From the NCBI GenBank assembly GCA_003696155.1, contig RFFP01000015.1:1-64000 (forward strand): 64,000 bases of DNA. Direction: 5' to 3'. The position numbers and the translations under genes were made by a program. Below, one piece after another: positions 6,409 to 6,425 of this stretch; within the stretch, counting starts at the first letter, position 1; each line of letters begins with the position of its first letter. This DNA comes from Acidobacteriota bacterium (GTDB lineage: Bacteria; Aquificota; Aquificia; Aquificales; Aquificaceae). Below the pieces are notes generated by a model that worked only from the letters and a program-made list of their open reading frames with translations, was not told the DNA's origin and did no database searches.

Positions 6409-6425
6409 GTAATAAAATTATAGCC
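6409..6425. promoter_or_regulatory. 17-bp divergent promoter with overlapping -10 boxes
   Basis: The whole gap is gtaataaaattatagcc. On the plus strand TAAAAT (6413-6418) is seven bases before the serS ATG; on the minus strand TATAAT (6417-6422) is eight bases before the cupin ATG. The two hexamers overlap by two bases, and any -35 contact must lie inside the opposite gene. Confidence 0.6.

Follow-up and report, generated by a model that had tools for sequence, protein, structure and literature searches.

Bidirectional promoters that arise through symmetry of the -10 element have been described by Warman, Grainger and colleagues, and are defined by divergent start sites 7-25 bp apart (PMC10268837, PMC12825309). 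In E. coli and Salmonella these start sites most often lie 18 bp apart, with spacings of 10 and 23 bp also common in E. coli (PMC12825309). At the 18-bp register the -7T and -11A are reciprocally paired, a property that is not required for membership of the class (PMC10268837). Polymerase sites also overlap in the EcoRV-type divergent restriction-modification promoters, where the two directions are balanced by a controller protein, the C protein (PMC5333194). For the Aquificae, a published survey describes leaderless genes that carry a TAtaaT signal some 12 bp ahead of the start codon, and puts the leaderless share at 20.7-32.4% of genes in two of five genomes (PMC3160421).

The serS/cupin gap

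The locus analyzed here lies in the 1.47-Mb genome of an Aquificaceae-like bacterium, within a stretch of 64,000 nucleotides that we refer to as the window. Its features are as follows.

6139..6408, minus strand: gene for a small single-domain cupin of 89 aa (Pfam Cupin_2, E=1.1e-11)
6409..6425, no strand assigned: intergenic gap of the divergent cupin/serS pair and candidate minimal bidirectional promoter (direct reading, with census and register tests)
6413-6418, plus strand: -10 box TAAAAT for serS, 5/6 to TATAAT
6422-6417, minus strand: -10 box TATAAT for the cupin gene, 6/6
6426..7700, plus strand: serS, serine--tRNA ligase of 424 aa (TIGR00414, E=2e-174)

Both start codons have support. 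SerS orthologues begin MLDxxLIRK and TIGR00414 fits from residue 1, while the cupin start is followed by an N-terminal helix kept among orthologues, a cupin match being present in 56 of the 61 family genomes. The closest named SerS match in the genome collection is from a Hydrogenobacter sp. MAG (70%). A tyrA-like gene on the same strand as serS terminates the upstream operon, with its end at 6147. The tyrA-like and cupin genes are convergent and their 3′ ends overlap by 9 bp (6139-6147).

The 17-base gap reads GTAATAAAATTATAGCC and is almost wholly one near-symmetrical promoter box. A preliminary description had placed opposite -10 boxes within these 17 bp with an overlap of two bases, and direct reading agrees, as the two boxes have 6417-6418 in common. 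Seven bases (6419-6425) separate TAAAAT from the serS ATG at 6426, and eight (6416-6409) separate TATAAT from the cupin ATG on the minus strand (6408-6406). The first T of the box is found 13 nt before the ATG for serS and 14 nt before it for the cupin, where the family peak is 12-16. By PWM the cupin-side box scores 8.8 bits versus 7.5 bits for the serS box. When random 17-bp gaps were drawn with the local intergenic composition, only 0.8% had, in each direction, a -10 that passed the score threshold set and lay in the leaderless window.

The gap contains no GGAGG-like Shine-Dalgarno sequence on either strand, and where a -35 box would lie, 15-19 bp ahead of the -10, the best TTGACA-like hexamer is 3/6 on both the serS and the cupin side. 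A simple sigma-70 scanner gave nothing at the gap because it requires a -35 box, and a terminator scan returned no terminator-like site in 5900-7000. From the box spacing and the lack of room for a Shine-Dalgarno sequence, both transcripts would probably be leaderless or carry a leader of 0-3 nt, in keeping with the earlier suggestion that both genes are leaderless. Starts at both ATG As (6426 and 6408) would be spaced by 18 bp; both strands would then have the reciprocal -11A and -7T, at 6415 and 6419, but hexamers of only 3/6. The better hexamers (5/6 and 6/6) give a nominal start spacing of 15, and the distance predicted from box and start-codon positions is 15-18 bp.

The predicted start sites are thus within the 7-25 bp that define -10-symmetry promoters and, as in that class, the opposite boxes share bases and polymerases physically exclude each other. 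Taken as a single site, serS/cupin follows a known principle, that of the -10-symmetry bidirectional promoter. Unlike the E. coli cases, the gap holds nothing beyond the box and two discriminators, and probably neither mRNA has a leader. The signal, its distance and the phylum match the leaderless genes of PMC3160421, which treats genes singly; head-to-head sharing of a box was not found in its available text. Polymerase sites overlap here as in the EcoRV-type promoters, but no regulator or operator is evident at the serS/cupin gap, whose 17 bp leave no space for one beside the box and the coding regions.

The serS box and its divergent partners

The serS side of the gap is conserved. TAAAAT precedes the serS ATG in 11/11 genus orthologues examined, and a -10-like box, usually TTAAAATATC or TAAAATTAT, is found 11-18 nt before the ATG in 29 of the 42 family orthologues with a locatable start, these 11 among them. 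The divergent neighbour varies among relatives and is usually 15-21 bp away. Partners are listed below under names taken from N-terminal sequence by eye.

G011 (20 bp) and G033 (21 bp): zinc-ribbon gene
G043 (18 bp): coiled-coil protein, then cupin
G030 (20 bp) and G036 (19 bp): NUDIX gene
G028 (20 bp): TatD-like gene
G013 (15 bp): BioD-like gene
G019: no divergent gene, tyrA directly precedes serS

That relatives retain the serS box whether they have another divergent partner or lack one speaks against a switch dedicated to serS and cupin. The serS/cupin divergent pair was not found elsewhere in 14 genus genomes, one of which (G059) is undecidable as its contig ends at the cupin start, or in the family sample. 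Since this pair is seen in one genome only, the conservation evidence at the locus covers the serS side.

Gene order in two relatives bears on how the cupin gene came to be where it is. In G043 the order is tyrA-cupin-X-serS, with the cupin second in the divergent unit and core TAAAATTTTA in the X-serS gap; in G033 the cupin is likewise the second gene, behind the zinc-ribbon gene. The first gene of the divergent unit (X in G043) is missing from the present genome, and the cupin adjoins the promoter. This suggests, without proving it, that a deletion or rearrangement brought the cupin to an already bidirectional serS promoter.

In several relatives (G011 and G033) the partner-side box at the serS gap is poor (TATTTT, 4/6), so strong bidirectionality of the serS promoter is not a given in every genome. 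These poor boxes lend something to an account in which only the serS box is functional, the cupin-side TATAAT arises as a side effect of -10 near-symmetry and yields scarcely any useful mRNA or none, and the cupin is expressed weakly or by other means; in AT-rich DNA, a -10 box readily resembles one on the opposite strand. We consider this account unlikely. In the present genome it is the cupin-side box that scores better, the gap has no other promoter and no Shine-Dalgarno room for the cupin, and in other genomes, such as G011, G033 and G053, the cupin frequently carries a -10 box of its own directly ahead of the ATG.

In a further account, most serS transcription would be read-through from the upstream operon, whose last gene is the tyrA-like one, running antisense across the cupin gene. 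The shared strand of tyrA and the lack of any terminator-like site between tyrA and serS in the region scanned would permit this, but serS keeps its own -10 box where tyrA (G019) or other genes directly precede it, and as the main source of serS mRNA such read-through seems to us highly improbable. It could coexist with the bidirectional-promoter account.

Tight divergent gaps in the window and in the family

Three other tight divergent gaps in the window have a bearing on the serS/cupin arrangement.

53865..53883, no strand assigned: second instance, 19-bp gap between dksA (minus) and a DUF1122 gene (plus), core TTAAAATTATAA, with TTATAATTATAA in most relatives
28454..28474, no strand assigned: third instance, 21-bp gap between a tsaE-like gene (minus) and a hypothetical gene (plus), core TATATTATA at 28460-28468
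24876..24899, no strand assigned: fourth tight gap, 24 bp, between a murG-like gene (minus) and a MiaB-like methylthiotransferase gene (plus), with opposite -10 boxes

The preliminary description also reported that the serS/cupin core recurs between dksA and its neighbour. The repeat is exact, with TAAAATTATA at 53870-53879, and the gap, interlocked boxes included, is conserved in relatives: seven aligned genus members share a gap of 19-20 bp and TATAATTATA (TAAAATTATA in the present genome), and an eighth, G057, shows the same sequence. The gap is bounded by the dksA ATG at 53864 (minus) and the DUF1122 ATG at 53884 (plus). A dksA start 21 nt further upstream, at which the start codons would overlap, was rejected as a caller artefact because relatives preserve both the MHHLT start and the gap. 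The gene for the DUF1122 protein (53884-54312) is divergent from dksA in most genus members having both. Compared with phages by megablast, the dksA region gave no match.

The tsaE/hypothetical arrangement was found in 13/13 genus genomes with both genes present. In the 12 with a gap in the same register the 9-bp core is 100% identical, while third codon positions in the right-hand gene show a pairwise identity of 0.53 and the remainder of the gap one of 0.68. The hypothetical gene sits upstream of an hslU-like gene. Among relatives, tsaE starts at this pair are mostly GTG. The murG/MiaB-like gap was dropped as a further conserved pair, its neighbours differing in most genus relatives. Judging from these alignments, the boxes at dksA/DUF1122 and tsaE/hypothetical appear to be selected as units. 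As evidence for the mechanism, these two pairs count for more than serS/cupin, which is seen in one genome.

To set these loci against their background, divergent pairs were surveyed in 752 kb of the present genome and 400 kb from each of four relatives, using a simple coding-potential gene caller that is blind to upstream signals. With starts called by coding potential only, some are wrong, as with the dksA start placed 21 nt too far upstream. In all five genomes -10-like boxes cluster 12-16 nt before the ATG. In the present genome, 82 of the 188 first genes of divergent pairs have a -10-like box at 12-17 nt, the control distance giving 10. The -35 signal at leaderless promoters in the five-genome sample was 3.08 versus 2.93 after shuffling, which is little or no enrichment, and clear enrichment was absent even at those that are widely spaced. 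A leaderless promoter in the sampled genomes is, in effect, a -10 box alone. Leaderless promoters also favour purines at the position four bases ahead of the -10 hexamer, with A at 0.36 and G at 0.36.

Gaps of 11-30 bp account for 56 of 316 divergent pairs in the five genomes and 25 of 103 in the present one, and none of the 316 has a gap of 3-10 bp. Counted base pair by base pair, the histogram is highest at 17-18. The same caller applied to 250 kb of E. coli K-12 gave 0/29 divergent pairs at 11-30 bp, the smallest called gap being 89 bp; annotation of the sampled E. coli DNA adds the overlapping pair tesA/ybbA and a 37-bp gap at bioH/yhgH. The heat-loving Aquificaceae use such candidate shared-box divergent promoters unusually often. 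Extrapolating from half of the genome, we estimate about 35 such gaps in the 1.47 Mb. The ten pairs for which the caller gave a gap of -2 bp probably stem from an artefact of the same kind as the miscalled dksA start. A wider divergent gap of 36 bp, at 40313-40348 of the window, has a ATAATATTATA core and a Shine-Dalgarno-like GGAGG on its right side, and is a possible mixed leaderless/leadered pair.

Interlocked opposite -10 boxes were present in 33 of the 56 tight gaps versus 11 after shuffling, where the shuffles preserve single-base composition only. The register with a 2-bp overlap (TATAATTATA type) was observed 14 times against an expectation of 1.9, the highest count among 300 shuffles being 7; that with a 3-bp overlap was observed 9 times against an expectation of 1.1. 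With a 7-nt discriminator, overlaps of 2-3 bp put the start sites nominally 15-16 bp apart, in contrast to the common E. coli spacings of 18, 10 and 23 bp. The two-base register, in which AT is shared, is one of few overlapping registers that allow a full consensus match for both boxes. Boxes lying 7-8 nt from their own start codons in a gap of 17-18 bp must overlap by 2-3 bp, and since register and gap length are linked in this way, the 17-18 bp peak may reflect the smallest workable arrangement and not a regulatory design.

These counts also bear on whether transcription of serS and cupin begins far upstream, inside the opposite gene, giving both mRNAs ordinary leaders and making the gap motif an AT-rich coincidence. 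In favour of this, neither side has a TTGACA-type -35, and differential RNA-seq work on Aquifex aeolicus notes upstream transcripts that overlap head to head, which were not resolved there (PMC4227106). We nonetheless hold such starts to be very unlikely, given that -35 elements are barely enriched even at widely spaced leaderless promoters, that the gap has no Shine-Dalgarno sequence for serS or cupin, and that the serS box is conserved while its neighbours change. The position-specific clustering of boxes in five genomes and the invariant cores at the conserved pairs speak against far-upstream starts as well.

Proposed mechanism and its reach

We hypothesize that 6409-6425 is a minimal bidirectional promoter for two leaderless or nearly leaderless mRNAs, used by one polymerase at a time, and on the sequence evidence above we think this fairly likely. 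The near-palindromic TAAAATTATA would act as a -10 box in either direction, so that housekeeping sigma-RNA polymerase would bind in either orientation and open the same stretch. Transcription would start at, or about 0-3 nt upstream of, either ATG. The two-base (AT) shared register, combined with 7-8 nt between each box and its start codon, would give gaps of about 16-19 bp. With a single polymerase on the box at a time and ordinary occupancy, both genes would be expressed independently. We infer the start sites, the activity of the cupin side and the lack of strong interference.

Earlier it had been proposed that polymerase could start in only one direction at a time, so that the two genes may be mutually exclusive. 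Single occupancy of the box holds, as the one-polymerase limit follows from the geometry and the literature, but mutually exclusive expression of serS and cupin does not follow from a shared box. In E. coli, basal occupancy at all five bidirectional promoters tested was too weak for mutual depression, and competition emerged only with strong activation of one direction (PMC12825309). A more ambitious reading is an Aquificaceae-wide regulatory device of interlocked leaderless promoters, among them those of genes for core functions (serS, dksA and tsaE). In such a device the two genes of a pair would depend on a single invariant box that has no -35 and leaves no space for an operator apart from it, so that polymerase orientation alone would set a coupled balance, or a limit on noise, between them. 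We regard this reading as quite unlikely.

We found no description of a leaderless and bidirectional promoter combined in bacteria, in a literature search that was light on subscription journals. Within the same limited literature, the family-wide leaderless interlocked form with its nominal register of 15-16 bp was also not found described. The arrangement would show concretely how short a divergent intergenic region can be, namely one shared -10 box and two discriminators serving leaderless mRNAs. With about 35 such gaps estimated for one genome, the family is a natural test set for how polymerase chooses its orientation without a -35 or a leader, and for whether competition matters. Annotation benefits as well, since a short divergent gap containing such a core identifies the true start codon on either side.
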